This document shows positions 4,732 through 61,046 of a stretch of 64,000 bases of DNA, one piece after another; within the stretch, counting starts at the first letter, position 1; each line of letters opens with the position of its first letter. The notes under the pieces are model-generated. The model saw only the letters and a program-made list of their open reading frames with translations. It was not told the DNA's origin and ran no database searches. Source of the DNA: Pseudorhodobacter sp. PARRP1 (lineage in GTDB: Bacteria; Pseudomonadota; Alphaproteobacteria; Rhodobacterales; Rhodobacteraceae); assembly GCA_002256245.1 (NCBI GenBank), contig NKIU01000012.1, positions 1 through 64,000 on the forward strand. Reading direction: 5' to 3'. Position numbers and translations under genes: made by a program.

Positions 4732-5017
4732 CGGGTTTCCTGTAAAATAAGCCTCGGGATGTGGATAACTTGGCCGCAAACCGGTTTCAGAAGCTTTCCG
4801 CAGGCGCGCGCTGGGGGGCTTGTGGGTGCTGCCTTTGCGCGAGATTTTGTCCCCGCGGGGACAAATCGCTGGTGATTGTGGTTTTGGGGTAAGCTGCCAC
4901 AAGATACAGAAATGTCTTGCGCGACTCGGATTCCTGCGCCATTCAATTACGGTATAAACGGAAATAACCGATAAATGCCGTAACAAACGGTGTTAGACAC
5001 TAAGTCTGGGCAGGACT
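4732..5017. promoter_or_regulatory. Divergent control region between parB-like gene and repA
   Basis: This 286-bp AT-richer spacer holds palindrome copy B and, at 4947-4983, a cluster of ACGG/CCGT words. An outer TTACGG (4947-4952) pairs with CCGTAA (4978-4983), and an inner CGG (4959-4961) with CCG (4968-4970); another ACGG follows at 4987. TATAAA at 4953-4958 could be a repA -10. RepA-RepB autoregulation of repABC operons is well known; these repeats as the operator is inference. Confidence 0.45.
4848..4863. repeat. Copy B of palindrome, in the parB-like/repA divergent region
   Basis: A perfect TGTCCCCGCGGGGACA lies 117 bases before the ParB-like start codon. On the minus strand it is preceded by CTTGTGGCAGCTTACC, then CCCCAAAACCACAA, then a 12-base spacer ending GATT. 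The same order is found at copy D. Confidence 0.9.
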
Positions 5018-6211
5018 ATGCAGGAAAAAGAGCGCGGGCAGCAGAAAAACCGGATCGACCGTTTGGTCGGCGAACATGCGGCCAAGCTGTCGGAACGGCT
5101 GATGGCGCATCGCACGCAGCTTTTCCCACCCAATGCGCAAAAGCAACTGCGCTCGTTCAGTTCGGGTGAGGTGGCGGGGCTGTTGGGCGTCAAGGATGCC
5201 TATCTGCGCAAGTTGTCGCTGGAGGGGCGCGGGCCGCAACCGCAGACGGGTGCGGGCGGGCGGCGGATGTATTCCTCGCAAGATATCATGGCGTTACGGC
5301 AGATGCTTGAAGTGGGGGCAAAAGCGCCCGGCACCTATCTGCCGGGGCGGCGGGCCGGGGATCACTTGCAGGTGGTGACGGTGATCAACTTCAAGGGCGG
5401 GTCGGGCAAGACCACCACGGCGGCGCATCTGGCGCAAAAGGCGGCGCTGGACGGCTACCGCGTGCTGGCGATTGATCTGGACCCGCAGGCCAGCCTTTCG
5501 GCGCTGCACGGTTATCAGCCCGAGTTTGATCTGGCCGATGGCGGCACGCTGTATGACGCGATTCGCTATGACGATCCGCTGCCGATCCGCGACATCATCC
5601 GGCCCACATACTTTACCAACCTGCATCTGATTCCCGGCAATCTGGAACTGATGGAGTTTGAACATGACACGCCGCGTGTGCTGGCCGAGCGCAGCGCTAA
5701 TCTGTTCTTTACCAGAATTTCCGATGCCTTGGCGCAGGTGGAAGCCGATTACGATCTGGTCGTGATCGACTGTCCGCCGCAACTGGGGTTTCTGACCATG
5801 TCGGCACTGTCTGCGGCCACTTCCGTTCTGGTGACGGTGCATCCGCAGATGCTGGATGTGATGAGCATGTGCCAGTTTCTGCTGATGACCTCGAACCTTT
5901 TGGGCGTGGTGGCCGATGCGGGCGGCAACATGAGTTACGACTGGCTGCGCTATCTGGTGACGCGATACGAGCCGGGCGACGGGCCGCAAAACCAGATGGT
6001 CAGCTTCATGCGCAGCCTGTTCGGCGATCATGTGCTGAACCATACCGTGTTGAAATCAACGGCTATCTCCGATGCGGGGCTGACCAAGCAGACCCTGTAT
6101 GAGGTGGAGAAGGCCGATTTCACCCGCGCCACTTATGAGCGCGCGATGGAAAGCCTGAACGCGGTGAATGGCGAGATTGAGGGTCTTATTCAAGCGGCAT
6201 GGGGGCGGTAG
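5018..6211 (+). CDS. repA: RepABC partition ATPase RepA (ParA family)
   Basis: A 397-residue ParA-type ATPase. An N-terminal HTH-like region (FSSGEVAGLLGVKDAYLRKL, about residues 48-67) is followed by a deviant Walker A, KGGSGKTT, near residues 126-133. Walker A' DLDPQAS and Walker B VVIDCPPQ come next. In repABC replicons RepA drives plasmid segregation with RepB bound at parS and represses its own operon. It is first in the order repA-repB-repC, with repB starting on the base after the repA TAG. The start is the ATG at 5018 and the length fits the family (about 400 residues). Confidence 0.95.
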   Translation: MQEKERGQQKNRIDRLVGEHAAKLSERLMAHRTQLFPPNAQKQLRSFSSGEVAGLLGVKDAYLRKLSLEGRGPQPQTGAGGRRMYSSQDIMALRQMLEVGAKAPGTYLPGRRAGDHLQVVTVINFKGGSGKTTTAAHLAQKAALDGYRVLAIDLDPQASLSALHGYQPEFDLADGGTLYDAIRYDDPLPIRDIIRPTYFTNLHLIPGNLELMEFEHDTPRVLAERSANLFFTRISDALAQVEADYDLVVIDCPPQLGFLTMSALSAATSVLVTVHPQMLDVMSMCQFLLMTSNLLGVVADAGGNMSYDWLRYLVTRYEPGDGPQNQMVSFMRSLFGDHVLNHTVLKSTAISDAGLTKQTLYEVEKADFTRATYERAMESLNAVNGEIEGLIQAAWGR

Positions 6212-7144
6212 ATGGCACGCAAGGATGTGTTGATCGGATTGCTGGCGACCCCTGCCCCCTCGGCAGCGGCACCGCCTCGGGCGCAAAAGGGCGCGATTGG
6301 GGCGGTTTCGCGCTCGATTGCCGATCTGAAAGCCCGCTCGGTGATCGAGTTGGACCCCGATCTGATCGAGGCGGGCGGCTTGCAGGACCGGCTGGAAAGC
6401 GATGCGGTGGACGACAGCGCGCTGGCGCGGTCTATCGGCGAATACGGCCAGCAGGTGCCGGTGCTGGTGCGGCCGCATCCTGACCACGAGGGGCGCTTTC
6501 AGATTGTTTATGGCCGCCGCCGGGTGCTGGCGATGCGGGCGCTGGGGCAACCGGTGAAGGCGCTGGTGCGCGATCTGGATGACCGGGCGCTGGTGCTGGC
6601 GCAGGGGCAGGAAAACACCGCGCGGCGCGATCTGTCGTTTATCGAGAAGGCGAATTTCGCGCGCCAGTTGCAGGAGGCAGGTTACGACCGCAAGGTGATC
6701 TGCGATGCGCTGTCGGTGGATAAAACCCTCGCCTCGCGCATGTTGTCGGTGGCGGGGCGGTTGTCGCCTGCGCTGATCGAGGCGATTGGGGCGGCACCGT
6801 CTGTGGGCCGCGACCGTTGGCTGGCGCTGGCCGATCTGGTTGAGGCGGGCGGTGACGGTGTGGCGGCGGCGGTGGGCGAGACATCTGACGCGCGTTTTCA
6901 GGCGGTGTGGGACCATCTGAGCCAGCCGAAAGCGGGGGCGACCGCCCTGCCCCGGCCTGCCCCGCAAGTGCCGCCGCGTGTGGTGCTGGCGATGGGTGGG
7001 GCGCCGTTGGCCGAGGCCACTTTGGGCACTACAACCATGACATTGAAGCTGCGTCTGGCGCAAACCGCCGGGTTTGAGGACTGGCTTCTGGATAACCTTC
7101 CCGCCCTGCTGCGCGATTGGCAGAACGGCAAGCCCAATGCGTAA
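6212..7144 (+). CDS. repB: RepABC centromere-binding protein RepB (ParB family)
   Basis: A 310-residue ParB-type protein. The N-terminal MARKDVLIGLL resembles the usual RepB opening (M-RK-LL). Residues about 50-150 hold the ParB nuclease-like domain with GRRRVLAMRALGQPVKALV and the ENTARRDLSFIEKANFARQL box. A central HTH follows (YDRKVICDALSVDKTLASRM). It should bind parS palindromes of the form GTTNNNNGCNNNNAAC; two perfect matches lie after repC. It begins immediately after repA, with no spacer, so the two are co-translated. Confidence 0.95.
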   Translation: MARKDVLIGLLATPAPSAAAPPRAQKGAIGAVSRSIADLKARSVIELDPDLIEAGGLQDRLESDAVDDSALARSIGEYGQQVPVLVRPHPDHEGRFQIVYGRRRVLAMRALGQPVKALVRDLDDRALVLAQGQENTARRDLSFIEKANFARQLQEAGYDRKVICDALSVDKTLASRMLSVAGRLSPALIEAIGAAPSVGRDRWLALADLVEAGGDGVAAAVGETSDARFQAVWDHLSQPKAGATALPRPAPQVPPRVVLAMGGAPLAEATLGTTTMTLKLRLAQTAGFEDWLLDNLPALLRDWQNGKPNA

Positions 7145-7177
7145 CCCTGAACCAGAAAGGAGGCACGGCCAGGCATA

Positions 7178-7231
7178 ACAAAAAGCCCCCCGGAACATGA
7201 CATTCCGAGAGGCCCATTCTTGTCTTTGCAC
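7178..7231 (-). ncRNA. RepABC antisense (counter-transcribed) incompatibility RNA
   Basis: In the repB-repC gap the minus strand shows TTGACA at 7261-7266, a 17-base spacer, and CTATTT at 7238-7243, predicting a start near 7231. It ends in a textbook terminator: an 11-bp stem with G-U pairs around the loop TGTCATG, then a T run (the A run at 7180-7184 on the plus strand). The length of about 54 bases and the location match the ctRNAs of repABC plasmids, which pair with the repC leader and limit RepC synthesis. Promoter and terminator are seen; the role is by family analogy. Confidence 0.8.
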
Positions 7232-7312
7232 TTCAAGAAATAGGCTCTCTTGTGTTCGGCTGTCAACCGCTGTTTTCAGCGGCCGGAGCAGTTTTGCCAC
7301 GTGATACCCCAG

Positions 7313-8536
7313 ATGAAGCATATTTCCGTGACGCCCTTTGGGCGGCAAGCGATGACTGCTGGCCTGTTGGCCGCGCGCGCGCTGAGCGATGAGGCCGCCC
7401 TGCCCCAATCTGGTTTGGCCCAGTCTGGTTTGGCCCGCATCGACAAATGGTCACTTTTCAACGACTTGCGCACAGCACGGCTGCGGTTTGGCCTTAGCGA
7501 CCGCGATCTGTCGGTGCTTTATGCGCTGCTGACCTTCCTGCCCGCCAAGGCGCTGGAGGATGCGGGCGATCTGGTGGTGTTCCCCTCGAACGCCGCGCTG
7601 TCAGACCGCGCACATGGCATGGCGGAAAGCACGCTGCGCCGGCATCTGGCGGTGTTGGTCAATGCGGGGCTGATCTGGCGGCAGGATAGCCCGAACGGCA
7701 AACGCTATGCCGCGCGGGATCGGTCGGGGGCGTTGGTGCAGGCGTTTGGGCTGGATCTGCGGCCCCTGCTGCTGCGCGCGGGTGATATCGTAGCGGCGGC
7801 GGCAGAGGTGGCGCAGGCCGCAGACCATCTGCACCGCGCGCGTGAGGCGCTGGTGCTGCGGATGCGCGATGCGGCCAAGCTGCTGGCCTACGGCATCGAG
7901 GCGGGCCTGCCGGGCGACTGGGCGGGGCTGGAGGCGCGCTTGCTGCCGCTGCGGGCGGCGCTGCGGCGCAAGATGGATGCGGATGTCGTGGCAGGGCTTC
8001 TGGGCGAAGCTGGGGATATCCTTCAGGCTTTGCGGGTGATGATTGATGTTAAAGCAGAAAAAAGGAACGGCACTGACGCCCATTCTGAGCGTCACCATAC
8101 GAATTCAAAGCAAGACTCTTATGAATTTGAACCTTGCCTAGAAACAGGCAGGGGCGACGGGACGGCTGCGATTGTGCCTGATCCGGGGGATGGCCCGCAG
8201 ATGCCAAGCGTGCCGCTGGTGTTGGTGTTGAAAGCCTGCCCGGATATTCAGCCCTATGCCCGATCCAACCTGACGCAATGGCGTGATCTGGTGGTGCTGG
8301 CGGCAGAATTGCGCGGGATGATGGGGATCAGCGCCTCGGCCTGGGCGGAAGCGCAGCGGTGCATGGGGCCAGAGACGGCGGCGATTGCGGTCGTGGCGAT
8401 GATGCAGCGGATTGGCAGCATTTCCAACCCCGGCGGTTATTTGCGGGCGTTGTCGGGCAAGGCTGCGGCGGGGGGATTCTCGGCGGGGCCGATGATTATG
8501 GCGCTGCTGAACAGCGAAGGCGCGCGGGCGGCGTGA
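7313..8536 (+). CDS. repC: Plasmid replication initiator RepC
   Basis: A 407-residue protein starting MKHISVTPFGRQAMTAGLLAAR. Typical RepC features follow: KWSLFNDLRTARLRFGLSDRDLSVLYALLTFLP and the winged-helix part SDRAHGMAESTLRRHLAVL. The C-terminal domain (about residues 300-400) has SNLTQWRDLVVLAAELRGMMGIS and the NPGGYLR motif common in this family. RepC is the initiator of repABC replicons, and the origin usually lies inside repC. The N-terminal part holds a tandem 15-base near-duplication (QSGLA QSGLA at about 7408-7437). An upstream in-frame ATG at 7250 was rejected because it falls in the ctRNA promoter region. Confidence 0.95.
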   Translation: MKHISVTPFGRQAMTAGLLAARALSDEAALPQSGLAQSGLARIDKWSLFNDLRTARLRFGLSDRDLSVLYALLTFLPAKALEDAGDLVVFPSNAALSDRAHGMAESTLRRHLAVLVNAGLIWRQDSPNGKRYAARDRSGALVQAFGLDLRPLLLRAGDIVAAAAEVAQAADHLHRAREALVLRMRDAAKLLAYGIEAGLPGDWAGLEARLLPLRAALRRKMDADVVAGLLGEAGDILQALRVMIDVKAEKRNGTDAHSERHHTNSKQDSYEFEPCLETGRGDGTAAIVPDPGDGPQMPSVPLVLVLKACPDIQPYARSNLTQWRDLVVLAAELRGMMGISASAWAEAQRCMGPETAAIAVVAMMQRIGSISNPGGYLRALSGKAAAGGFSAGPMIMALLNSEGARAA

Positions 8537-8537
8537 T

Positions 8538-8553
8538 GTTGACAGCTGTCAAC
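8538..8553. promoter_or_regulatory. parS-type RepB site 1, GTTGACAGCTGTCAAC
   Basis: A perfect 16-bp palindrome fitting the published repABC parS consensus GTTNNNNGCNNNNAAC. It begins two bases after the repC stop codon, a usual place for these centromeres. Confidence 0.85.
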
Positions 8554-8563
8554 CGAAGCCCAA

Positions 8564-8579
8564 GTTGACGGCTGTCAAC
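8564..8579. promoter_or_regulatory. parS-type RepB site 2, GTTGACGGCTGTCAAC
   Basis: A second match to GTTNNNNGCNNNNAAC, 26 bases after the first and differing from it by one base (A to G), so slightly imperfect as a palindrome. A weaker relative, GTGTTCGGCTGTCAAC, overlaps the ctRNA promoter at 7252-7267. Confidence 0.8.
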
Positions 8580-8588
8580 TTTGCCCGC

Positions 8589-10022
8589 TCATGTGGCGGA
8601 AGCCATGGCAGAGGCCAGCCGCAGATCGTCGACCAACTCTTGCCGCGCACGCGCTTGGGCTGTGGCGTCGGGAAGGCGCAGGATGTGGGCCGGGTGCCAC
8701 GACACCAGCACCGGGCCGTTGTGCAGGCCGGTCTGCACCTTGCCGCGCCGGGCGGTCAACGGGCTGGCATCGCCGGTCAGCGCAAACGCGGCCGAGGCAC
8801 CGAGGGCGACGGTCAGGCGCGGTTGGATAAAGCCAATCTCCAGCCCCAGCCACCAGCGGCAATGTTCGATCTCGGCGCGGTCGGGCGATTGGTGCAACCG
8901 CTGCTTGCCGCGTGGGGTGAATTTGAAATGCTTCACCGCATTGGTCAGCCAGACCCTGCCCGCATCCGCCCCCGCCTGCGCCATCGCCTGATGCAGCGCC
9001 TGCCCCGCTGGCCCGACGAAAGGCCGACCGGCAAGGTCTTCCTGATCACCCGGCTGCTCGCCCACGATCATCAGGGCGGCATCCGGCGCGCCCGTGCCCC
9101 AGACGGTTTGCGTCGCAGCCTCGCACAGCCCGCAGCGGCGGCATTGCATTGCGGCGGCGCGCGCCTGATCCAGACTGTCGGGCAGGGCGACCGCTTGCGG
9201 CATGGCGTTGCGGTAGCGGGTTGAAACCGGGGCAGAGCCCGGACGGGCCGCGCTGGCCCCGGCCTCGCGCATCCGCTGCACGCGGGCTTCGGCATCTTTC
9301 AGCATTTCGGGGATAAGGCGGGTTTCGGGCAGGTTTTTCCAGTATTTCAGCGGCATTTCCGACCGCATCGCATCCAACTTGATCCGTGCGGGGTTGAAAA
9401 TATTGGCAAAATACGTGGCCCATAGGGATTCTGACGCATCATCCGGCAGATCGGGCCGTGCGCCTGCGGGGCCGAAATCCAGCACGCCATCGCGGAATTG
9501 TGCGGTAAGGCGCGGTGTTGCGATCAGCCAATCCATATCGGCGAAACGCTTGGCGAAGAACGAACTGCCCGGCTCCAGCGTGTTATGCTCGGGCTCGAAC
9601 CACGCGGCAAAACTGCGGCGGGGGGTGTCAGAGGGCAATTCGCGAAAGCGCACGAAGGCGTGCATCTTGTGGATGTCACGGCTGACGCCCTTGGCCATCA
9701 GATGCAGCCTGCGCCCCAGTGGATCGGTCTGCGACAGCGGGGTGCCGTCGCGCTGATCCAGCCGCCACAGCGCCTGATAGAGCAGCGCAAACCGCTCGGC
9801 GGCCGCGTGCCAGATCACCTGTTCGGCCAGTTTCACAAACTCCTCCGGCACGCGGATCTGATGCGGGCCGGGGGTGTCGGGCAGCGCCTCGGCGGCAAAC
9901 AGACCGCCGCCGCCGTTCCACTCCACCTGATCGGGCGGGATGCGGTGCGAGATCGCGGTGCGCGCCGCATCCCGCCAAGCCGCAAAGGTGCCGCGCGGGG
10001 GCAGGGGGGCGGCATAGCTCAA
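8589..10022 (-). CDS. UdgX-type uracil-DNA glycosylase fused to an N-terminal DUF4130-like domain
   Basis: About 477 residues. The first half (SYAAPLPPRGTFAAWRDAAR ... FAAWFEPEHNTLEPGSSFFAKRF) is the DNA-metabolism domain usually paired with a radical SAM partner. The second half is a family-4-like UDG with cluster cysteines in CRRCGLC, the motif GEQPGDQEDLAGRPFVGPAG, and the loop GKQRLHQSP. That loop matches the KRRIH loop of UdgX, whose His bonds covalently to uracil-DNA; here it reads KQRLH. The start is probably a TTG at 10022 overlapping the TGA of the radical SAM gene (TTGA); the ATG at 10100 would overlap it by 82 bases. Confidence 0.85.
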   Translation of the reverse strand: MSYAAPLPPRGTFAAWRDAARTAISHRIPPDQVEWNGGGGLFAAEALPDTPGPHQIRVPEEFVKLAEQVIWHAAAERFALLYQALWRLDQRDGTPLSQTDPLGRRLHLMAKGVSRDIHKMHAFVRFRELPSDTPRRSFAAWFEPEHNTLEPGSSFFAKRFADMDWLIATPRLTAQFRDGVLDFGPAGARPDLPDDASESLWATYFANIFNPARIKLDAMRSEMPLKYWKNLPETRLIPEMLKDAEARVQRMREAGASAARPGSAPVSTRYRNAMPQAVALPDSLDQARAAAMQCRRCGLCEAATQTVWGTGAPDAALMIVGEQPGDQEDLAGRPFVGPAGQALHQAMAQAGADAGRVWLTNAVKHFKFTPRGKQRLHQSPDRAEIEHCRWWLGLEIGFIQPRLTVALGASAAFALTGDASPLTARRGKVQTGLHNGPVLVSWHPAHILRLPDATAQARARQELVDDLRLASAMASAT

Positions 10023-11251
10023 ATCAGGCGCAACTGTTCGGGCGGCGGGGCAAAGCGCGCGCGCAGGTTGGCGCTGTCGGTCATGCCCGCAGGGGTCCAT
10101 CCCGGCAAGCTGATGAAAGCTTTGGCTTTTTTCATCAGCGCGCCCATGCGCACCAGGTCTTCAAACCGCAGGGCGTGGTTTTTGCGCGCGGCGATAATGC
10201 GGTCAACCGTGCGGGTGCCAAAGCCCGGCACGCGCAGCAGCATGTCGCGGGTGGCGCGGTTCACATCCAGCGGAAACAAGCCGCGATGCTGCAAGGCCCA
10301 GGCGAGTTTCGGATCAAGATCAAGGTCGAGATGCCCGGCTGTGGCCCCGGTGGCGATCTCATCAGCGCTGAAGCCGTAAAACCGCAGCAGCCAATCGGCC
10401 TGATACAGCCGATGTTCGCGCAACAGTGGCGGTTGGATCAGCGGCAGCGCGGCGGACGCATCGGGGATCGGCGAGAACGCCGAATAATACACCCGCCGCA
10501 GTTTATACCCGGTGTAAAGCCGCGTCGCACTGGTCAGGATGGTGACATCATCGGTGCCGTCCGCGCCGATGATCATCTGCGTGCTTTGGCCTGCGGGCGC
10601 AAACCGTGGCGGCTTTTTGCCGGTATGGCTGCGGTCTTTCGCGGCCTCCCCCTCGAGCCGGACCTGCGCCATGGTGGCGCGGATGGTTTCGGGGCGCTTT
10701 TCGGGGGCGAACTGGCGCAGGCTGGCGTCTTGTGGCAATTCCACGTTGATTGACAGCCGGTCGGCATAAAGCCCCGCCGCCTTGATCAACTCGGCCGAGG
10801 CGTCGGGGATGGTTTTCAGGTGGATATAGCCTTTGAAACCATGCACCTCGCGCAGGGTTTGCGCGATGCGCACCATGTCGGCCATGGTCTGATCGGGCGA
10901 GCGGATGATGCCCGACGACAAGAACAGCCCTTCGATGTAGTTGCGGCGGTAAAACTCCAGCGTCAGCGACACCACTTCTTCCACCGAAAACCGGGCGCGT
11001 TCGACGTTGGACGACACCCGGTTGATGCAATAGGCGCAGTCAAAGATGCAGAAATTCGTCATCAGAATTTTCAGCAGCGAGATGCAGCGCCCATCCGGCG
11101 TGTAGGCGTGACAGATGCCGCTGCCGCCAGACGACCCCAAGCCGCCCTTGCGGGAATCGCGCCGCTCGCCGCCCGAGGATGCGCAAGAGGCGTCGTATTT
11201 TGCGGCGTCTGAAAGCACCGCAAGTTTGTCTTGAAGGGTCATGCTTGCCAT
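10019..11251 (-). CDS. Putative DNA modification/repair radical SAM protein
   Basis: A 410-residue radical SAM enzyme with the cluster motif CIFDCAYC (CxxxCxxC) near residues 68-75. It has an early GGERRDSRKG stretch and a C-terminal helix-hairpin-helix-like region (LRVPGFGTRTVDRIIAAR) that suggests DNA binding. It belongs to the family genetically linked to UDG/DUF4130 proteins, and that partner follows directly with a 4-base overlap. The substrate of the family is unknown. A LexA-type box lies 16 bases before the ATG, so the pair is probably SOS-induced. A second ATG nine bases inside (MTLQDKL) is an alternative start. Confidence 0.9.
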   Translation of the reverse strand: MASMTLQDKLAVLSDAAKYDASCASSGGERRDSRKGGLGSSGGSGICHAYTPDGRCISLLKILMTNFCIFDCAYCINRVSSNVERARFSVEEVVSLTLEFYRRNYIEGLFLSSGIIRSPDQTMADMVRIAQTLREVHGFKGYIHLKTIPDASAELIKAAGLYADRLSINVELPQDASLRQFAPEKRPETIRATMAQVRLEGEAAKDRSHTGKKPPRFAPAGQSTQMIIGADGTDDVTILTSATRLYTGYKLRRVYYSAFSPIPDASAALPLIQPPLLREHRLYQADWLLRFYGFSADEIATGATAGHLDLDLDPKLAWALQHRGLFPLDVNRATRDMLLRVPGFGTRTVDRIIAARKNHALRFEDLVRMGALMKKAKAFISLPGWTPAGMTDSANLRARFAPPPEQLRLI

Positions 11252-11266
11252 TAACAGAACATAGGT

Positions 11267-11281
11267 GTTCTGCTTATGTTC
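11267..11281. promoter_or_regulatory. LexA-type SOS box, GTTC-N7-GTTC
   Basis: The plus strand reads GTTCTGCTTATGTTC, a perfect match to the alphaproteobacterial LexA direct repeat GTTC-N7-GTTC. It sits just upstream of the minus-strand radical SAM/UdgX pair, a fitting target for a DNA-damage repressor. The remaining spacer (11252-11349) holds nothing else I recognise. Confidence 0.75.
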
Positions 11282-11349
11282 GTCAACGCAACCCGCAGCC
11301 GATGCGCGAATATGCGGCAGCGGCTGCGGTCACATTGGTGCGGGCGGCG

Positions 11350-14229
11350 CTATTTTCCCAGCACCGCCAGTATCGCCTCGGTCAGTTCGCGGTCGGAGAA
11401 CGGCTTGCCGAGAATGGTGTAGTTCGGCAAATCCTCGGCCCCCGAAACCGAGCGGCCGCCGGTTGCGAAAATCACCGGCAAGGCTGCAAACATCGCCACC
11501 GCGCGCTGTGCGACCTCGACCCCCGAGATATCGGGCAGGCCGACATCGACGATCAGCAGATCAAAGCTTGCCGCTTGCAAGGCCTCAAGCGCCTCGGTGC
11601 CCGACCCCACGCCGGTCACCACGCAGCCGCTTTCCACCAGCCCATCGACCAGATCCATGCGGATCAGCATCTGGTCCTCGCAGACCAGCACCCGCAGACC
11701 CGCGATTGCGGCGGGGGGGGGCGCGGTGTCGGCGCGTGGTGGCGCTGAGATGGGGGCCGAGATTGCAGCGGGGGAGGGCGGTTTGCCCAGCACTTCGCGG
11801 ATTTTCAGCGCCAGTTGCTCTTGCGTGTAGGGTTTGCTGAGCAGTTGCACGCCGGCATCAAGCCTGCCGCCATGCACGATCGAGTTGCGGGTGTAGCCCG
11901 AGGTGAACAGCACCGGCAGATGCGGGATCAGATGGCGCGCGCGGTCGGCCATCTCGCGGCTGGTGACCTTGCCGGGCATCACCACATCGGTGAACAACAA
12001 GTCAATCCGCACGCCGCTTTCGATCACCGCCAAGGCGCGCTCGGCATCGCGGGCTTGCAGCACGGTATAGCCCAGATCGTTCAGCAGATGGGCTGCGGTG
12101 ATGCGCACATCCTCGTCGTCTTCCACCAGCAAGATCGTCTCATTGCCGCCCGCCAGATCATCGACGGTCAGGCTGGGCGGCAGTTCTTCGGCATCCAGCG
12201 AGCGCGGCAGGTAGATTTTCACCGAGGTGCCGCTGCCGATTTCGCTGTAAATCTTGATATGGCCGCCGGATTGTTTGACAAAGCCGTAAACCATCGACAT
12301 GCCCAGCCCGGTGCCACGGCCTTCGGGTTTGGTGGTGAAAAACGGGTCAAACACCCGCTCTATCACATCCGCAGACATGCCTGATCCGGTGTCTGTCACC
12401 GCCAGCATCACATACTGGCCCGGCACCACATCCAGATGCGACCGCGCGTAGGCTTCATCAAGATAGGCATTGCCGATTTCAATGGTCAGCTTGCCGTGAC
12501 CCTCCATCGCGTCGCGGCCATTGATCGCCATGTTCAGCACGGCGCTTTCAACATTGGTGGGGTCCACGCAGGTGTTCCACAACCCACCTGCCACGATGGT
12601 TTCAACCTCAACCCCTTCGCCGATGGCGCTGCGCACGATATTGCCGGCATCGCGCAACAGCCGCCCAAGGTTGATCACCTTCGGCGCCAGTGGTTGCCTG
12701 CGCCCAAACGATAGCAGTTGCGAGGCAAGCGTTGCCCCGCGCTCTACTGCTTTCATCGCCAATTCGATGCGCGGCATCACCTCTGACGCGGGGTCGATGC
12801 GGCGCTTTGCCAGTTGCAGACTGCCGCTGATGGTTTGCAGCAAGTTGTTGAAATCATGCGCAATACCGCCCGCAAGATTGCCAATCGCCTCCATCTTCTG
12901 GCTTTGGCGCAGGGCGGCGTTTACGGTCTCAAGCTCGCGGTTACGCTCGGCCACGCGGTCTTCCAGCGTCTGGTTCATCTGCGCAATCGCGGCTTCGGCC
13001 AGCTTGCGGTCTTCGATATCGGTGTTGGTGCCGACCCAGCGCTCCACCCGGCCCTCGGCGCAATAGATCGGGGCTGCGCGCACGATGAACCACCGATAGG
13101 CCCCGTCATGGCGGCGGATGCGGAATTCGGTCTCGTATTGAGTGCCAGATGCAAGGGCTGCGGCCCAGCTTGCCGCCGCGCCTTCCAGATCATCGGGGTG
13201 CAAAGCCTGCCCCCAGGCCGCGCCGTAAAGATCGCCCTCGGCCAGCCCGGTATAGGCATAGGCCTGATCGTTCAGCCAATCCAACCCACCGTCGGGCCCG
13301 GCTGTCCAGACCTGATTGGGCATCGACTGCGCCATCACGCGGAACCGCTCGCGCGTCTCAAACAGCTCTGCCTCGGCGGCCTTCTGCTTGGTAACGTCAT
13401 GGCCCTGCACGAAAATGCCAGTCGTCAACCCATCCGAGTCGCGCATCGGCTGAAAGATGAAATCAACGTGCCGCTCGATTTCTGCCTCGCCGCCATCCGG
13501 GCGGAACCGCACCAGTGCGCCGCTCTGCGAAAACGGCGTCCCCGAGGCGTAAACCTGATCCAGCAGTTCGAAAAACCCCTGTCCTTCCAGCTCGGGCAGG
13601 GCGGTGCGCACGCTTTTGCCCAACACATCCGCCCGCCCGATCAGGTCTTTGTAGGCGTCGTTGGCCAGTTGGAACACGTGATCCGGCCCCGAGATGATGG
13701 CGATAAAACCGGGGGCCTGATCGAAAATCGTGCGGAAGAATTGCGCGATGCTGCCCAGTTCCAGATTTTGCCGCGCCACCACTTCGGCGCGGCGCACCAT
13801 CGTGGTGTGATCAGCGGGGTTTGCGGCGCGCTCTGCGGCAGAAGCGATGTAAAGCTCGGTCACGTCATTGGTGTTCTGCAGCAGAAACTCTACCGCGCCC
13901 TGCGCATCCAGCAGCGGCGTGTGCGTCGCACTCCAATACCGCGCCTGCGGGGTGCCGTCCGCCGCGACAATCGGATAGGGGATCAGCGGCAAATGATCGG
14001 TGACGGCGGTTTCGAATACCCGCTTGAACGAGGCTTTCAGCATCCGGTCGGCGACTGAATCCGGCGGGGCTGGAAATTCCTCGGTCATGATGCGGCCAAT
14101 GATCTGCGCCCGCGTGCGCCCCGTCACGGCAAGATAGGCGTCATTCGCCCAGATCATGCGCAGATCGCGGTCCACCAGCACGTGCGGCGACGGAGACGAG
14201 GCGAAGATGGCATCCAGATCAATCAACAT
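11350..14229 (-). CDS. Hybrid histidine kinase: PAS-PAS-PAS-HisKA-HATPase-REC-REC
   Basis: A 959-residue cytoplasmic sensor kinase with no membrane segments. Three PAS domains (about residues 1-120, 155-285 and 295-415) precede a coiled coil (QTLEDRVAERNRELETVNAALRQ) and the phospho-acceptor helix GNLAGGIAHDFNNLLQ. The ATPase domain shows NMAINGRDAM, DTGSGM and GTGLGMSMVYGF. Two receiver domains follow, with DDE...TDVVMPG and CEDQ...VDVGLPDISG. None of the PAS domains has the LOV cysteine motif, so flavin photosensing is not supported. It faces the PRC-barrel gene across 187 bases on the same strand, with a terminator between. Confidence 0.88.
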   Translation of the reverse strand: MLIDLDAIFASSPSPHVLVDRDLRMIWANDAYLAVTGRTRAQIIGRIMTEEFPAPPDSVADRMLKASFKRVFETAVTDHLPLIPYPIVAADGTPQARYWSATHTPLLDAQGAVEFLLQNTNDVTELYIASAAERAANPADHTTMVRRAEVVARQNLELGSIAQFFRTIFDQAPGFIAIISGPDHVFQLANDAYKDLIGRADVLGKSVRTALPELEGQGFFELLDQVYASGTPFSQSGALVRFRPDGGEAEIERHVDFIFQPMRDSDGLTTGIFVQGHDVTKQKAAEAELFETRERFRVMAQSMPNQVWTAGPDGGLDWLNDQAYAYTGLAEGDLYGAAWGQALHPDDLEGAAASWAAALASGTQYETEFRIRRHDGAYRWFIVRAAPIYCAEGRVERWVGTNTDIEDRKLAEAAIAQMNQTLEDRVAERNRELETVNAALRQSQKMEAIGNLAGGIAHDFNNLLQTISGSLQLAKRRIDPASEVMPRIELAMKAVERGATLASQLLSFGRRQPLAPKVINLGRLLRDAGNIVRSAIGEGVEVETIVAGGLWNTCVDPTNVESAVLNMAINGRDAMEGHGKLTIEIGNAYLDEAYARSHLDVVPGQYVMLAVTDTGSGMSADVIERVFDPFFTTKPEGRGTGLGMSMVYGFVKQSGGHIKIYSEIGSGTSVKIYLPRSLDAEELPPSLTVDDLAGGNETILLVEDDEDVRITAAHLLNDLGYTVLQARDAERALAVIESGVRIDLLFTDVVMPGKVTSREMADRARHLIPHLPVLFTSGYTRNSIVHGGRLDAGVQLLSKPYTQEQLALKIREVLGKPPSPAAISAPISAPPRADTAPPPAAIAGLRVLVCEDQMLIRMDLVDGLVESGCVVTGVGSGTEALEALQAASFDLLIVDVGLPDISGVEVAQRAVAMFAALPVIFATGGRSVSGAEDLPNYTILGKPFSDRELTEAILAVLGK

Positions 14230-14370
14230 CTACGCGGTCCTTGTGGCATGAGGGGCGGACTGCTGCGCCCTCGGTCAAATGTCGTTACCGGGTTAGAGAA
14301 GCGATAAGTTTTGTCAACACGGTGTTTGCCACGGCTTTGGATAATCCTGTCCTGGCAAAGAAATCGTGCA

Positions 14371-14400
14371 AAAAGGCCCGCCGATTTGGGCGGGCCTTTT
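14371..14400. terminator. Bidirectional intrinsic terminator
   Basis: An 8-bp stem, GGCCCGCC/GGCGGGCC, with a 6-base loop is flanked by AAAA and TTTT. On the minus strand it ends the PRC-barrel transcript 16 bases after its stop codon. The rest of 14230-14416 shows no gene. Confidence 0.85.
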
Positions 14401-14416
14401 GGTGTTTGGCGGGGAT

Positions 14417-15220
14417 TTAGCCTTCGTAGGTCGGCATGGCTTCCAGTTGTTCTTTGGTTTGGCCCAGATAGACCCGCAGATCGTCGCCGTCGGCTTCTTT
14501 CAGGATGTCCACATCGGCCAGCGGCAGGGCGACGGGCTTTTCACCCATGCCAAGGAAGCCACCGACGTCCACGATCACCTGTTCAACCTTGCCATCCGCG
14601 GACAGCACCAGATTGGACACTTCGCCGATCGCGGCGTCGGTGGCGTCATAGACCTTGGCACCGGTCAGCTTTTCCGAGGTCAGCAGGGTGGCATCAGCGG
14701 CGACATAGCCGTCGCGCAGCATCGGCGCGCGGGTGGCCCCTGCGGCCATGGCATCGGTAGCCGGAGCGGCGGCCATCGCATCGCCGTTGGTCGCGCTGTT
14801 CATCGCATAGGGCGGGGCGGCCTCAAAATCGGCGCGCTTGGCGGTCATCACCAGGAAAAAGTCGTCCGGCGCATCGGCGGTGGCGCTGTCGCTGACGAAT
14901 TTGATCGCCTCCATCCCGACGGCGACCTGACGCTCGCCCATCCCCAGAAAGCCGCCGATATCGACCAGAACCGCATCGACCTTGCCATCGCGCGACAGGA
15001 TCACGTCGTTGATCTCGCCGATATCGTCCCAGCCTTGCTGCGCGCCGTTGTATTCGGTGGCATCAATCGCGGCTTCCGAAGCATAGACGCGCATGCCGAT
15101 AAAATCAGACGCGCGCACGTTCAACGGGTCGGCAGCGGCACGGAAGGCCGCGACATCTTGCGCCGCAGCGGCACCGGCAAGACCGGCAAGCAGGGCGGTG
15201 GACAGCAAAAGCTTTTTCAT
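14417..15220 (-). CDS. Exported protein with two PRC-barrel domains
   Basis: About 267 residues. A signal peptide (MKKLLLSTALLAGLAGAAAAQ) ends near residue 22, so the protein is exported. Two PRC-barrel repeats follow, each with the near-identical hallmark VDIGGFLGMGE (first repeat) or VDVGGFLGMGE (second repeat). Between them is an Ala/Met-rich linker. The start was chosen among three consecutive ATGs because GGAG is best spaced to the third. PRC barrels also occur in reaction-centre subunit H (PuhA) and RimM, but this protein is periplasmic and of unknown role. Its position near the PGC may be chance. Confidence 0.8.
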   Translation of the reverse strand: MKKLLLSTALLAGLAGAAAAQDVAAFRAAADPLNVRASDFIGMRVYASEAAIDATEYNGAQQGWDDIGEINDVILSRDGKVDAVLVDIGGFLGMGERQVAVGMEAIKFVSDSATADAPDDFFLVMTAKRADFEAAPPYAMNSATNGDAMAAAPATDAMAAGATRAPMLRDGYVAADATLLTSEKLTGAKVYDATDAAIGEVSNLVLSADGKVEQVIVDVGGFLGMGEKPVALPLADVDILKEADGDDLRVYLGQTKEQLEAMPTYEG

Positions 15221-15567
15221 CATCATCTCCAAGAGCTGCAAAGGTTGCACGCATTCAGCGCTGTCTGAAAAACGCAAGGCCGCGCCGGGTGGTTCCGAAA
15301 TTAATCAGCAAATTCAACGGGAACCATCACGCCCCTGGCGCGTTGCGGCGGGGGTTTGGGGCTAAGATGACGGGCTGCCACAGCCAGCTTTGCGCCGCGC
15401 TGGCCTTTGTTTTAACGCGGCAATGCAGCATTTTACGCCTGTAACTTTTTCAAGAAACCCGTCTTGCCACAATCTTGAAACGTCATATAGTCACAGCCTC
15501 AAAGGCATACGAGGATCGGTGATCTTTCGGCGGGCCATTGACACTGATGGCTTTGGAGGGGGTCAAC
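15221..15567. promoter_or_regulatory. Intergenic region with predicted promoter of the AerR-like gene
   Basis: This 347-bp divergent gap contains TTGCCA (15464-15469), a 16-base spacer and TATAGT (15486-15491) reading toward the AerR-like gene. I found no TGT-N12-ACA PpsR site here, unlike most other PGC promoters. Confidence 0.5.
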
Positions 15568-16392: not shown

Positions 16393-16398
16393 CGGCGC

Positions 16399-18392: not shown

Positions 18393-18435
18393 AGACACTC
18401 CAGATACAGAAAGCTGCAAGATTGTTCGCGGGTGT

Positions 18436-26364: not shown

Positions 26365-26399
26365 CCTAGCTGTCAGTGATCCCTACTGGAGCGATCACC

Positions 26400-27493: not shown

Positions 27494-27565
27494 CCACAAC
27501 ATCTTGTGGAAATCCGCCCCAAAATCCCCAAAAACCACAAGTCTGTCCCCGCGGGGACAGATTTT
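27494..27565. repeat. Copy C of the palindromic element with arms
   Basis: The core TGTCCCCGCGGGGACA is at 27544-27559. The 50 bases before it start CCACAACATCTTGTGG and end ACCACAAGTC; GATTTTT follows the core. The spacing from CCACAA to the core is the same as in copy E. It lies just past the crtC stop codon. Confidence 0.9.
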
Positions 27566-42223: not shown

Positions 42224-42302
42224 AGATTCTGTCCCCGCGGGGACAAATCTCTGTAGGGTGTGGTTTGGGTATATTCGCATACAACATCTAGCTTGCCACA
42301 AG
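42224..42302. repeat. Copy D of the palindromic element with arms
   Basis: The core TGTCCCCGCGGGGACA is at 42230-42245, 15 bases after the dxs stop. On the minus strand it is preceded by CTTGTGGCAAGC, then ACCCAAACCACA, then a 12-base spacer ending GATT, the same order and spacer as copy B. Confidence 0.9.
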
Positions 42303-46961: not shown

Positions 46962-47597
46962 CTATTCGGCCGCCATGGCCATGCCGGGCATGACGCGGGC
47001 GACGGTGGGTTCACTGATGCGGGTTTCGGCGGCGTCGGCCAGAAGCTTTGCCACGCGGGCGGCATCGGGGATACAGCGCAGGGTGGGTTGGGTTTTGGCA
47101 AAGCGCCACGGGCGGACATGCGGCCAGCAGACCAGATAGGAAATCCGTGTCTCGCCCAAGGTTTCCAAGGCGATGGAGCCTGTGCCATTGCGCTTGGTGG
47201 CCAGCGTTGCCGCCCCCACCTGCTTGAACGGCACGTTCAGCGTGACGGTCAGCGCCGCGCCGATCCGCAAAGCCACCCGCGCGCTGGTGATGGTGTAAAC
47301 CGTGGCGCGGGCCTGAACCCATGCCATCAGATAGAGGATGCCGCAGGCGACCAGACCAATGGCGAGGTAGGGCAGCATCACCGCGATGATTGAGGCCGGG
47401 CTGCCATCCGACACCGCAGACGCCCGCCACACCGCCAGCGCCACGAAATACCCGGCCACCCAAGTGACCTTGAAGGCATCGCGGGCCAGCGCCAAAGCGT
47501 CGGGGCGGCCTTGCCACAGCAGCTCTTCGCCCAAGGGCGGGCGTTCTGGCAGGCCGCGCACGGGTTCGGTGGCGAAGTCGTCGTGGCCCATGCTCAT
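46962..47597 (-). CDS. puhB: PuhB, photosynthetic complex assembly protein 1
   Basis: A 211-residue protein starting [20 protein letters not shown], with [21 protein letters not shown] and two to three membrane helices, then a bacterial-PH-like domain ([20 protein letters not shown]). PuhB acts as an RC assembly factor. Its ATG overlaps the puhA TGA (ATGA); an ATG nine bases upstream is a less likely start. Confidence 0.92.
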
Positions 47598-48367: not shown

Positions 48368-48383
48368 TGGGTGTCCTCCGGGG

Positions 48384-49826: not shown

Positions 49827-50488
49827 GGACGATACTCCAGACATTCCGAGATATAGAACCCGCGGGAGACGCGGTCGATTTTGCTGACCCGGCCTTTGGT
49901 GGCGCGGTTCAGGGTGGCATAGGCGTGCGGCACCATGATCGGGCTGCGGTCGGCGCGCGGGAACAGTTTTCCCATGCTCCAGAACGTCATCAGAAACGCG
50001 GTTTTCGGGGCGACGGTGAACACCACGGCGCGTTCGGTGCGGCTGCCCAAGCGGTCCAACGCGGCGGTGATGTCGGTGGTGCCGTAGTAAATCAGGCTGT
50101 CCATCGCGATCACGTAATCAAAGCGGCCATGGTCGGCGGTCATGTCGCCAGAGGCAAAGCTGACGCGGTGGGCATGTTCGGCGGGCAGGCGGGCAAGGGC
50201 GATATCGACCAAAGCGGGCGAGATATCCACCGCCATCACATCGGCGCCCCGGGCGGCGAGTTCGGCGGTCATTTGCCCAGCACCGCAGCCTGCGTCCAGC
50301 ACGCGCGCGCCGCGCAGATCGGCGGGCAGGCGGGAAAGCATCAGGGCGCGCATCTTGTCGCGGCCTTCGCGCACGGTCTGGCGGATGCGGGAAACGGGGG
50401 CGTCAGAGGTCAGACGCTCCCACACTTTGGTCGCCGAGCGATCAAAGTAGTCTTCCACACGGGTCAGGGTTGCGTCGTAATTGGCCAT
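49823..50488 (-). CDS. bchM: Mg-protoporphyrin IX O-methyltransferase
   Basis: A 221-residue SAM methyltransferase starting MANYDATLTRVEDYFDRSAT. Motif I is VLDAGCGAGQMTAELAARGA; a later [11 protein letters not shown] ends the protein. It methylates Mg-protoporphyrin IX. It starts one base after the bchL stop. Confidence 0.96.
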   Translation of the reverse strand: MANYDATLTRVEDYFDRSATKVWERLTSDAPVSRIRQTVREGRDKMRALMLSRLPADLRGARVLDAGCGAGQMTAELAARGADVMAVDISPALVDIALARLPAEHAHRVSFASGDMTADHGRFDYVIAMDSLIYYGTTDITAALDRLGSRTERAVVFTVAPKTAFLMTFWSMGKLFPRADRSPIMVPHAYATLNRATKGRVSKIDRVSRGFYISECLEYRP

Positions 50489-50489
50489 C

Positions 50490-58364
<7,875 letters not shown>

Positions 58365-58421
58365 GGATTGGCTTTCAAACAACGTATGCTGATGCCAACC
58401 CTAGCCCCGTGATTCCGAATG

Positions 58422-58439
58422 TGTCAACTGAAACTTACA
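58422..58439. promoter_or_regulatory. PpsR/CrtJ site 1, bchF-ppaA
   Basis: TGT-CAACTGAAACTT-ACA, perfect TGT-N12-ACA, 58 bases before the bchF ATG. Its left half includes TGTCAA, a TTGACA -35 on the minus strand. Confidence 0.8.
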
Positions 58440-58565
58440 CTATTGAGGTTGACACACTCTGCGCGTTTTGAGGGGAATCCGCGTTGTTTGCGGCAAAAAA
58501 ATCGGGCTATTATTATTTAGAAACATATACTTGAAATAATGCCGCCAGATGACTAGGCTTAAAGG

Positions 58566-58583
58566 TGTCAATTTTCTTTGACA
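58566..58583. promoter_or_regulatory. PpsR/CrtJ site 2, bchF-ppaA
   Basis: TGT-CAATTTTCTTTG-ACA, perfect, 144 bases from site 1 and about 100 before ppaA. The 320-bp gap between the two genes is otherwise AT-rich with no gene seen. Confidence 0.8.
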
Positions 58584-58684
58584 AAATGTTGGACCTATTA
58601 GAGAGTTAAGGCCAAGGATGACCCCGATCGTGCTGGCATATTCAGGTGGCGATTTTGCGGGTGCCTGTTTGAGGAGCCGGGGCG

Positions 58685-59476
58685 ATGTCAGACTTTCAGC
58701 CTCTCAATCAGGTGCGCACCTTGGCTTCGGACAATTCCGGCGTCAGTTTCTTTGCCTCTCAGGTGGTGTCTCTGCTTGCCGATCGCAGCGTGAAATCCGT
58801 GGTGGAGCCGCGCGAGCAGTTGATCGAAGGGCTGATCGCCGCATCCTTGTCGGGCACAAAGGCGGCGTTTTCGGGCTTGCTGACCGAGGTGAAGCGGGCG
58901 CGGATCAGTCTGGCGGCGCTGTCGGACGTGTATATCCCGATTGCGGCGCGCCGGATGGGGCAATCCTGGCTGGACGACGAGATGTCGTGGATCGACGTGA
59001 CCATCGGCGTGGGGCGGATGCAAAGCCTTCTGCGCGAGATTGGCACGGCTTGGGTGGCGGATCAGGCCGGCGACACCGGCCATGGCACGGTGATGTTGAT
59101 TGTGCCAGAACGCGAGCAGCACACCCTGGGGCCGATGGTGGCCACCGGGCAGTTGCGCCGCTATGGAGTTTCAGTTTGCCTGAGAATTGCGCCAAGTTTC
59201 AACGAATTGCGCAGTTTGATGGCAGCACGGCATTTCGATGGGGTGATGATCTCGGTTGCCACCAAGGAAAAACTCGAATCCGTCACAAAGACGGTGCAAT
59301 TTTTGAAGACCATCATGAGCAGTCCAACACCGATCGTCGTCGGGGGGGCCGTGATGTCAAAAGTGGAGGATCCGGCTTCATGCACAGGGGCTGATTTTTC
59401 ATCCAATGACATTGGCGCTGCGCTGGAGGTTATGGGCCTTAAGTTCGACGCCTTTTGCGTGCTCAAGCGCGCTTAA
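58685..59476 (+). CDS. ppaA: PpaA/AerR, cobalamin-binding regulator
   Basis: A 263-residue protein after GAGGAG. A helical cap (AARRMGQSWLDDEMSWIDVT, about residues 88-107) precedes the B12 domain with PEREQHTLG; His146 corresponds to the axial ligand His145 of R. capsulatus AerR. AerR/PpaA antagonises or assists CrtJ/PpsR depending on light and B12. It sits directly before ppsR, the standard position. Confidence 0.93.
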   Translation: MSDFQPLNQVRTLASDNSGVSFFASQVVSLLADRSVKSVVEPREQLIEGLIAASLSGTKAAFSGLLTEVKRARISLAALSDVYIPIAARRMGQSWLDDEMSWIDVTIGVGRMQSLLREIGTAWVADQAGDTGHGTVMLIVPEREQHTLGPMVATGQLRRYGVSVCLRIAPSFNELRSLMAARHFDGVMISVATKEKLESVTKTVQFLKTIMSSPTPIVVGGAVMSKVEDPASCTGADFSSNDIGAALEVMGLKFDAFCVLKRA

Positions 59477-59527
59477 CATACCGTGGTCCCGGTGAGACGG
59501 GTGGGCGGCAAAAATGGCGAAACTGCT

Positions 59528-60943
59528 GTGAATACTGACACGAAACACTTTTTGACGGGCATGACGATGCCGCTGATTGATCCAGAGATGCTCTCTGAGA
59601 TCGTGTCAACGGCTGCGGACATTTCTTTGTTGATTTCGGGCGATGCACGGGTTGCGGCTGTGATGGTCAATCCGGGGCATCCGGCGTTTGGCCGGCTGGA
59701 CAGTTGGGTTGGCAAGCCGGTGGCGGATATTATCACCGATGAAAGCCATGAAAAGCTGGTCAAGCGGCTGGCGGTGATTGGCAAGCAGGGCTCGCGGGCG
59801 CTGGCGGTTGAGATCAATCATATTGATCAGGCGCTGTGGGAATTTCCGGTGCGCTATTCGATGCACAACATCGGCAAGGACAGAACCATCCTGATGATGG
59901 GCCGCGATATGCGCCCCGTGGCCGAGATGCAGCAGCAGCTGGTGATGGCGCAGTTCGCGCTGGAGCGTGACTATGAAACCCAGCGCGAGATGGACACGCG
60001 CTACCGCGTGCTGATGGAAGCCACGCGCGATGCGGTGGTGTTGGTTGCGATGAATTCGGGGCGGATTTCGGATCTGAACGCGGCGGCGGCGCTGATGCTG
60101 GGCGGCTCGCGGCAAGATCTGGTGGGCGCGGCCATTGCGCAGGAATTTGAGGGGCGGCGGCGCGGCGAGTTTCTGGAAACCTTGTCGAACATCGCCTCGG
60201 CCGATGCGGTCAGCCCGGTGGAGTTGGTGGCGCGGCGCTCGCAGCGGCGGGTGCGGGTGATCCCCAAGCTGTTCCGCGCGGCGGGTGAACGGCTGATGCT
60301 GTGCCGGATTGAGGCACCCGAACAGGCCAATACTCCGAACACCGAAACCAATGAAAATCTGGAACGGCTTTTCCACGAAGGCGTGGATGGCATGGTGTTT
60401 CTGGACCAAGACGGCGTGATCACGGCGGCCAATGATGCGTTTTTGAAGATGACCGACAGCACCCATGTGACCGGCGTGCGGGGCCGTTCGATGGGCGATT
60501 TTCTGGCGCGCGGCGGCGTTGATCTGCGCGTGCTGCTGGACAATGCGCGGCGGGCGCGGCAGTTGCGGATGTATGCGACGCGAATTCTGAACGAGTTCAA
60601 GGGCGAAGTGGCGGTCGAGATTTCGGCCACTTTCCTGAGCGACCGGCCCAACCCCGGCTTTGGCCTGATTATCCGCGATGCCAGCCGCGCCGAGATGCTG
60701 CGCAAGCCCGGCTTTACCGCGGGCGAGGATGGCATGCGATCCGTCATGGAGTTGGTGGGGTCTTCGACGCTGAAAGACATCGTCACCGAGACCACCGATG
60801 TGGTTGAAAAGATGTGTATCCAGACGGCGGTTGACCTGACCCGCAACAACCGCGTGGCGGCAGCCGAGATGCTGGGGCTGTCGCGGCAGTCTTTGTATGT
60901 CAAGCTGCGCAAGTTTGGATTGCTGAGCAAAGACGACGAATAG
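59528..60943 (+). CDS. ppsR: PpsR/CrtJ, redox-responsive photosynthesis repressor
   Basis: About 471 residues from a GTG at 59528; GTG 59483 and ATG 59561 are possible. An N-terminal domain and two PAS domains (about residues 140-260 and 275-390) precede a Fis-type HTH (NRVAAAEMLGLSRQSLYVKL). The two redox cysteines of PpsR are kept: one in RLMLCRIE (about 259) and one in VEKMCIQTAV (about 430). It binds TGT-N12-ACA, of which ten perfect copies are seen in this window. Palindrome copy E follows 37 bases after its stop. Confidence 0.95.
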   Translation: MNTDTKHFLTGMTMPLIDPEMLSEIVSTAADISLLISGDARVAAVMVNPGHPAFGRLDSWVGKPVADIITDESHEKLVKRLAVIGKQGSRALAVEINHIDQALWEFPVRYSMHNIGKDRTILMMGRDMRPVAEMQQQLVMAQFALERDYETQREMDTRYRVLMEATRDAVVLVAMNSGRISDLNAAAALMLGGSRQDLVGAAIAQEFEGRRRGEFLETLSNIASADAVSPVELVARRSQRRVRVIPKLFRAAGERLMLCRIEAPEQANTPNTETNENLERLFHEGVDGMVFLDQDGVITAANDAFLKMTDSTHVTGVRGRSMGDFLARGGVDLRVLLDNARRARQLRMYATRILNEFKGEVAVEISATFLSDRPNPGFGLIIRDASRAEMLRKPGFTAGEDGMRSVMELVGSSTLKDIVTETTDVVEKMCIQTAVDLTRNNRVAAAEMLGLSRQSLYVKLRKFGLLSKDDE

Positions 60944-60974
60944 CCGTCGCGCGATTTAACCGGAAATGCGGCAA

Positions 60975-61046
60975 AATTTCTGTCCCCGCGGGGACAGACT
61001 TGTGTTGTCCGGGCGCTTTTGGCAGATTTTCTACCATATATTGTGG
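60975..61046. repeat. Copy E of the palindromic element with arms
   Basis: The core is at 60981-60996. On the minus strand the preceding 50 bases start CCACAATATATGG and end ACACAAGTC, matching copy C at 34 of 50 positions with no gaps. Both share CACAAGTC directly before the core. Confidence 0.9.

Follow-up and report, generated by a model that had tools for sequence, protein, structure and literature searches.

The best-known ParB turned chromosome-wide organiser is Noc, described for Firmicutes. In Bacillus subtilis this ParB-family protein lacks a ParA-binding motif (PMC12704722), is marked by about 70 scattered sites around the chromosome (PMC4331003), each a 16-bp palindrome with a parS-related layout, and owes its specificity to a few residues of the DNA-binding domain (PMC4331003, PMC7383237, PMC12704722). 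A figure legend in PMC7383237 shows Noc orthologs as restricted to Firmicutes. Among plasmid systems, the ParAB modules of DnaA-like I replicons (such as Roseobacter litoralis pRLO149_94) have parA directly upstream of parB and clustered sites, and lie inside the photosynthesis cluster of such plasmids (PMC6052148). The palindromes of RepABC replicons carry group-specific bases and co-evolve with the partition genes, some lying downstream of RepC (PMC5613091), and in Rhodobacterales and Rhizobiales nearly all lie within the operon or close to it, distant ones being rare (PMC9040568). KorB of RK2 and VirB are ParB-type cytidine triphosphatases (CTPases) that regulate gene expression (PMC12704722), acting at promoter-linked sites. 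Here we describe a dispersed 16-bp palindrome, TGTCCCCGCGGGGACA, and an orphan parB-like gene in a 64,000-bp stretch of Pseudorhodobacter sp. PARRP1 (hereafter the window: bases 1 to 64,000 of the 70,885-bp contig NKIU01000012.1, or C13, in the 4.35-Mb, 28-contig draft genome G000). As judged from sequence, the palindrome is very probably the docking site of the encoded plasmid-type protein, which has no motor partner. The system shares with Noc the missing ParA partner, the palindrome layout and a specificity set by few residues, but has a plasmid-ParB origin in Alphaproteobacteria, is plasmid-encoded and has a second DNA element beside many of its sites. It shares with the DnaA-like I modules a homologous ParB and the same palindrome, whereas ParA and the conserved N-terminus are gone and the sites are dispersed. 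Palindromic, group-specific sites are also common to RepB-parS, but the palindrome differs and the RepABC operon of the window has its own.

Five exact copies of TGTCCCCGCGGGGACA occur in the window (copies A to E, Table 1), at the positions given in the preliminary description and against a chance expectation of almost none (0 copies in 100 shuffles of the window sequence); no further copies were found in the window at up to three mismatches, a tolerance at which 0.92 would be expected. Our gene caller agreed that one copy lies within the parB-like gene and four are intergenic, that copy B is in the control region of that gene (116 bp upstream of its start and 154 bp before repA), and that copies C, D and E closely follow predicted stop codons. 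The ortholog in a second genome, G003, has a palindrome at the place equivalent to copy A. When public genomes were scanned with the palindrome alone (at least 113 stretches), 19 stretches among the matches listed encoded a homolog of the window protein, with 40 to 46% identity over 276 to 292 aligned residues, or 211 in one truncated case. In 15 of these 19 loci a Walker A motif of ParA lies upstream of the gene, the other four loci ending too near it; palindromes were found close to where parA ends, at both ends of parB, and farther out. Across the family (394 genomes, about one per genus), the 16-mer was present in 33 genomes, with 0 control matches, and a homolog at E ≤ 1e-40 in 96, which included all 33 (P = 4e-23), each of the 33 having its homolog at E ≤ 1.1e-48. 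The expectation that presence of the palindrome should follow the ParB-like gene was thus borne out in 33 of 33 genomes, and we regard binding of the palindrome by this protein, predicted from such covariation, as highly probable. Plasmid records with a homolog at E ≤ 1e-20 numbered 324. In the R. litoralis photosynthesis plasmid and one of Thalassococcus, the homolog is ParA-linked, and parA as well as the bch genes next to it contain palindromes. On a Phaeobacter plasmid (L326) no more than a one-base variant lies near the operon, and a gene with a DnaA domain is at the opposite end of that record. By sequence similarity, the window protein is a member of this plasmid-borne ParB family of Rhodobacteraceae, which extends to DnaA-like I photosynthesis plasmids.

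The coupling extends to specificity. Homologs without TGTCCCCGCGGGGACA (TGT-type) were often flanked by TTCCCCGCGGGGAA (TT-type). The latter lies upstream of the ortholog in G012 (66% identical to the window protein; one TGT-type copy), from which dispersed TT-type sites were predicted in that genome; G012 proved to have 22, and G000 and G003 (88% identical; 35 TGT-type copies) have zero. Ten of the 22 loci were examined, eight of them alignable to examined G000 sequence and two outside it. Four correspond to a TGT-type palindrome at the same place in G000 (copies B and C, L021 and L019), so that the palindrome is swapped in place at four orthologous loci, the G012 counterpart of copy C being L241; three match G000 places without a palindrome and one is ambiguous. 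At the start of the predicted recognition helix, R179-Q180 was found in 40/40 rows of TGT-type proteins (at least two genes counted twice), and R was absent from 9/9 TT-type rows, replaced by P, A or Y. The marker is the pair R-Q, because some distant homologs without either site type also have R, followed by A or P. The code switch is nested in a clade of Cypionkella, probably the genus of the host and of G003 (support 100/100), and in about 1.27 Mb of G000 only two sequences came within one mismatch of the TT-type, both adjoining the accessory element described below; these would resemble fossils of an earlier code. In a related species, sites and protein thus appear, from sequence comparison, to have changed recognition code together. 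In the family survey, TT-type sites occurred in 46 of 394 genomes, 39 of these among the 96 with a homolog, so that 71/96 have one of the two site types; the remainder may use other codes. Both types were found together only in G315 (five copies and one). A possible third code is represented by L224 and L220, with Y-T at the recognition position and, in L224, CTTACCCGCGGGTAAG just past parB (2379–2394). A different perfect palindrome, TGTCCCAGCTGGGACA, stands upstream of the orphan gene of G003 (L225:1371–1386), at the place taken by TGTCCCCGCGGGGACA in G000. In Caulobacter ParB, R173 bonds with guanine 1 of parS (PMC7383237), which from the numbering would be the G of TGT. In our reading of the HMMER alignment R179 is one residue away from the equivalent of R173, and MAFFT alignment with the host chromosomal ParB matched R182 instead; because the alignments disagree, R179 is no more than a possible counterpart of R173.

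Genome-wide, G000 contains 62 copies of TGTCCCCGCGGGGACA on 13/28 contigs, including 10/10 contigs known to exceed 100 kb. The suggestion that copies might cluster on one replicon held in so far as C13 is enriched about fivefold (5 in 70.9 kb versus 57 in 4.28 Mb; Poisson P = 0.003), and failed for the spread over the other contigs. In 1.37 Mb of G000 chosen partly around sites, 62 copies were exact and 3 differed at one base; no sequence had two mismatches, 4 had three and 46 had four. This near-total exactness fits a binding site under selection. Flanks were constrained as well (both strands pooled: +1 purine in 116/124, +2 A in 102/124). No exact match to the extended 21-letter site was found in viral contigs. 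Placement was assessed with our own codon-usage gene caller, trained on G000 (coding fraction, 0.864): 40 of the 62 copies fell in convergent gaps, 18 in co-directional and 3 in divergent ones, and the single copy inside a gene was that in the parB-like gene. Convergent gaps make up 22% of intergenic length, and the excess of copies there was strong (P about 5 × 10−13); in G012, 8/10 examined copies were likewise convergent. On the four largest contigs of G000 (33 clusters, 29 gaps) spacing was more even than random (coefficient of variation 0.53 versus 0.93; 0/5,000 randomizations as low), the largest gap being 150 kb versus 275 kb expected. In G048, 19/25 clusters (1-kb clusters) lay in the half nearest chromosomal parS (Kolmogorov-Smirnov P = 0.0014); GC skew was too noisy for mapping the terminus in either G048 or G000. 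An array of exact palindromes mixed with TGTCCCCACGGGGAC variants occurs in G003 (L152:6932–7085), with none at the corresponding place in G000.

Beside many sites stands a second element, ACTTGTG-N26..28-CCACAANATNTTGTG, of near-fixed length. It was counted 8 times in G000, 8 in G003 and 10 in G012, and 0 times in the other 12 genomes of the genus (several incomplete); nor was it seen beside those G048 and G077 sites inspected. The TTGTGG/CCACAA arms attributed to the four intergenic copies in the preliminary description are a real composite flank, strict at copy C, although looser at copy E and diverged at copies B and D. In 1.25 Mb of G000 with 17 palindromes, the second half of the element was matched 18 times at up to two mismatches; 8/18 matches were within 90 bp of an exact palindrome, and 3 of the 10 others adjoin decayed palindromes. 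Composite sites with two kinds of recognition element are familiar from P1 ParB-parS, and the likeness noted here is one of layout.

The protein has the ParB family architecture, an N-terminal CTPase fold followed by a helix-turn-helix (HTH) domain. It matched TIGR00180 at E = 6.7e-07, under the curated cut-off, and PF02195 (ParB_N) at E = 0.0038, below cut-off; PDB profile matches were to Noc and Spo0J at about 1e-9, and the nearest solved folds by Foldseek were Noc, ParB and KorB. The GxRR and ENxxR boxes, which bind CTP in relatives, were invariant in 34 sequences. In the predicted model (34 sequences; mean predicted local distance difference test [pLDDT] score of 81), helices and strands follow the ParB order of N-terminal domain, HTH, flexible linker and C-terminal domain. 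No ParA in the gene's own orientation was found upstream of the orphan gene in any of the five genomes examined (G000, G003, G012, G077 and G048), nor a same-strand upstream Walker A motif in G000, G003 and G012. The neighbouring ATPase gene in G000 and G003 is repA, divergent from the orphan gene, and an opposite-strand Walker A motif together with DNA synteny indicates the same layout in G012. The locus thus has cognate palindromes (copies A and B) without the parA-parB operon of plasmid ParABS, and it is not a ParABS system because ParA is missing. Of the earlier proposal, the distributed system beside RepB-parS is supported; a second partition system proper is unsupported, for want of a linked ParA. 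The N-terminal region of ParA-linked relatives (MAxAIxENA...IRAENDxLAHE) is also missing from the window protein, which begins with MS[IL]TRPFxAxP, common to the three Cypionkella orthologs (G000, G003 and G012). Orphan genes without ParA link or conserved N-terminus also occur in G077, which by coinciding site coordinates is Actibacterium sp. 188UL27-1, with 79 copies of the palindrome, and in G048, with 33 TT-type copies. The tree places the G048 orphan outside the Cypionkella clade (100/100), with a ParA-linked protein as its sister (100/97), and G077 on a long branch of unsure placement. A second, distant ParB-like frame lies elsewhere in G000 (C24:1005882–1006640, L070; about 30% identity, internal stops in the aligned stretch), and the host chromosome retains its own ParAB with four parS copies.

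We propose, at a probability of roughly 65%, that a domesticated plasmid ParB loads at dispersed sites and organises the nucleoid, Noc-like by convergence; with slightly less assurance, a genome-wide architectural role is favoured over transcription control. The sites, the gene, their coupling in presence and specificity, and the placement and spacing biases were computed directly. The CTP switch, spreading and cellular output would follow by analogy with ParB and Noc. A single palindrome would serve a dimer as nucleation site, at which it would form a closed CTP clamp before moving outwards by sliding or spreading; evenly spaced loading points, mostly between convergent genes, would mark or compact nucleoid and plasmid, and clamps loaded in such gaps would stay clear of promoters. 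The position of copy B would allow the parB-like gene to be autoregulated. A more tentative extension is that plasmid centromere-binding proteins of Rhodobacteraceae may have given rise on two or more independent occasions, and probably on three, to ParA-free, genome-wide nucleoid systems like Noc (Cypionkella, the G048 lineage and Actibacterium), the Cypionkella code having probably switched from TT to TGT with one recognition-helix residue and left swapped and fossil sites behind. If true, this would be a repeated, independent route from alphaproteobacterial plasmid ParBs, implying that centromere proteins are readily domesticated, and closely related species would form natural pairs that differ in the specificity of the protein and, along with it, in dozens of sites. 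With these genomes it becomes directly testable how a recognition code can change although many sites have to follow. The 16-mer had no match in the literature searched, and the titles and abstract openings retrieved on orphan ParB, alphaproteobacterial Noc and dispersed parS in Rhodobacteraceae do not describe the system (the DnaA-like plasmid palindromes of Petersen 2011 fall outside that scope).

Several observations weigh against this proposal. Fifteen contigs of G000 (444 kb together) carry no copy, for which the probability at mean density is 0.002; some may represent a replicon without sites. Convergent bias was absent from G048 (1/15 examined copies) and G077 (3/12), as assessed with the G000-trained gene caller, and the origin bias in G048 weakens to P = 0.14 when sites within 10 kb are merged. 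Among the 46 TT-type genomes are four without any homolog at E ≤ 1e-20: G032 has four copies, and G116, G120 and G209 have a single one each. The single copies say little, though, because the reversed control of the TT-type 14-mer also matches singly in 17 genomes, near chance. The AlphaFold predicted template modelling score (pTM) is only 0.59. Finally, sites are dispersed in Tateyamaria (at least 10 loci in T. omphalii KCTC 12333) despite a ParA-linked ParB (10/11 genomes, the eleventh cut too short), and 26/65 copies there are inside genes. A strict rule equating an orphan gene with dispersed sites is therefore ruled out: orphan state and dispersal are not strictly tied, because Tateyamaria keeps ParA with dispersed sites.

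It is unlikely that the system is a true Noc analogue, in which the orphan ParB would carry its bound DNA to the membrane and so prevent cell division across the nucleoid. With 62 dispersed sites and no linked ParA it would work like a dispersed ParB/Noc-type system, but it lies outside Noc by profile (TIGR04285, 17.6 bits versus a cut-off of 315). The scattered palindromes and missing ParA-binding motif of Noc itself, the fact that the top profile and fold matches are Noc, and an N-terminus kept in three Cypionkella orthologs would all suit such a role. However, no Noc-type amphipathic membrane helix appears in residues 1 to 36 of the model (a region of low pLDDT), four of the first 18 residues are prolines, the G048 and G077 orphans have unrelated N-termini, and a site-free terminus is not demonstrable in the draft contigs of G000.

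Improbable, too, is a tether, by which the plasmid-encoded ParB would bridge plasmid and chromosomal sites and let the plasmid travel with the chromosome. In G000, G003 and G012 the orphan gene does share a contig of 63 to 71 kb with a repA-like gene, C13 combines the gene with fivefold site enrichment, and the photosynthesis plasmids of R. litoralis and Thalassococcus have the ParA-linked form; against this, the plasmid already has RepABC with its own palindrome, and the G048 orphan gene is on a 4.15-Mb contig, about 98 kb from chromosomal parS. Transcription regulation of the KorB/VirB kind, from many operators, would account for KorB being among the nearest folds and for copy B in the gene's own upstream region, and both namesakes are ParB-type regulators of gene expression (PMC12704722). 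We consider it quite improbable: in G000 copies are 3/62 divergent and 40/62 convergent, and divergent gaps are rare in Cypionkella in contrast to promoter-linked sites; they were commoner among examined copies of G048 (4/15) and G077 (3/12).

Repetitive extragenic palindromic (REP) repeats and bacterial interspersed mosaic elements (BIMEs) are imperfect, decaying copies that are independent of a DNA-binding partner. That the palindrome is such a repeat, or a bidirectional terminator hairpin resembling parS by chance, is very improbable. The 3′-end and convergent placement in Cypionkella, the semi-conserved flanking element, close pairs of palindromes 26 to 33 bp apart in several G000 cases, and a T4 run within 12 nt of 19/62 copies (nearby background about 6% per strand) are what it would lead one to expect; yet copies are nearly always exact, 43/62 have no T4 run within 12 nt on either strand, and the window has no Rfam match at the gathering threshold. 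The hairpin and terminator alternatives of the preliminary description leave unexplained why the type of site goes with the ParB recognition residue and why palindromes are swapped in place, and as a sole explanation they were rejected on these grounds together. Least credible is a decoy function, by which chromosomal copies would keep out plasmids sharing the partition group through centromere incompatibility, since although the sites are identical to palindromes at that group's parAB loci, the host retains its ParB gene and Tateyamaria also retains the ParA-linked system.

Two other candidate binders encoded in the window were set aside. RepB was rejected because the RepABC palindrome differs and the 16-mer tracks the other ParB. 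The layout TGT-N-ACA is that of sites for the photosynthesis regulator PpsR, and this reading was dropped in view of the genome-wide spread of the copies, most of them in convergent gaps, and of their clustering at parAB elsewhere.

Table 1. Coordinates of the parB-like gene, palindromes, accessory elements and RepABC features in the window
Feature	Position	Strand	Remarks
Orphan parB-like gene, 327 aa	3748–4731	−	R179-Q180 at start of predicted recognition helix
Palindrome copy A	3932–3947	.	Inside parB-like gene, codes for LSPRGQ
Palindrome copy B	4848–4863	.	Between parB-like gene and repA; orthologous place in G012 occupied by TTCCCCGCGGGGAA
Diverged accessory element, TTGTGG ... CCACAAGATACAG	4876–4912	+	Beside copy B
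repA of RepABC	5018–6211	+	ParA-type ATPase, MerR-like N-terminus; divergent from orphan gene, same in G003
repB of RepABC	6212–7144	+	Probably the replicon's own ParB, from translation and position in repABC
Perfect palindrome GTTGACAGCTGTCAAC	8538–8553	.	Directly after repC; probable parS of RepABC
Accessory element, ACTTGTG-N-CCACAAGATGTTGTG	27495–27542	−	Beside copy C
Palindrome copy C	27544–27559	.	16 bp past end of weakly predicted minus-strand gene
Palindrome copy D	42230–42245	.	14 bp past dxs-like stop, convergent gap
Diverged accessory element	42246–42297	+	Beside copy D, by eye
Palindrome copy E	60981–60996	.	37 bp past stop of PAS-HTH_8 (PpsR-like) gene
Accessory element	60998–61046	+	Beside copy E, by eye

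Photosynthesis genes (TspO, dxs-like, CobN/Mg-chelatase, PpsR-like and UbiA/BchG-like) lie at 26376–63349 of the window. A RepABC photosynthesis plasmid that also carries a relative of the DnaA-like I plasmid ParB suggests a replicon swap, and since the replicon has RepABC, the orphan gene may be left over from a former partition module. Three close copies of the 16-mer with other flanks, probably unrelated, occur on a contig of a Dysgonamonadaceae metagenome-assembled genome (L133). Peptidase_C14 caspase-domain and YceI-domain genes lie near parAB on Pseudophaeobacter and Leisingera contigs (L162:5744–7150 and L199:4650–6137).

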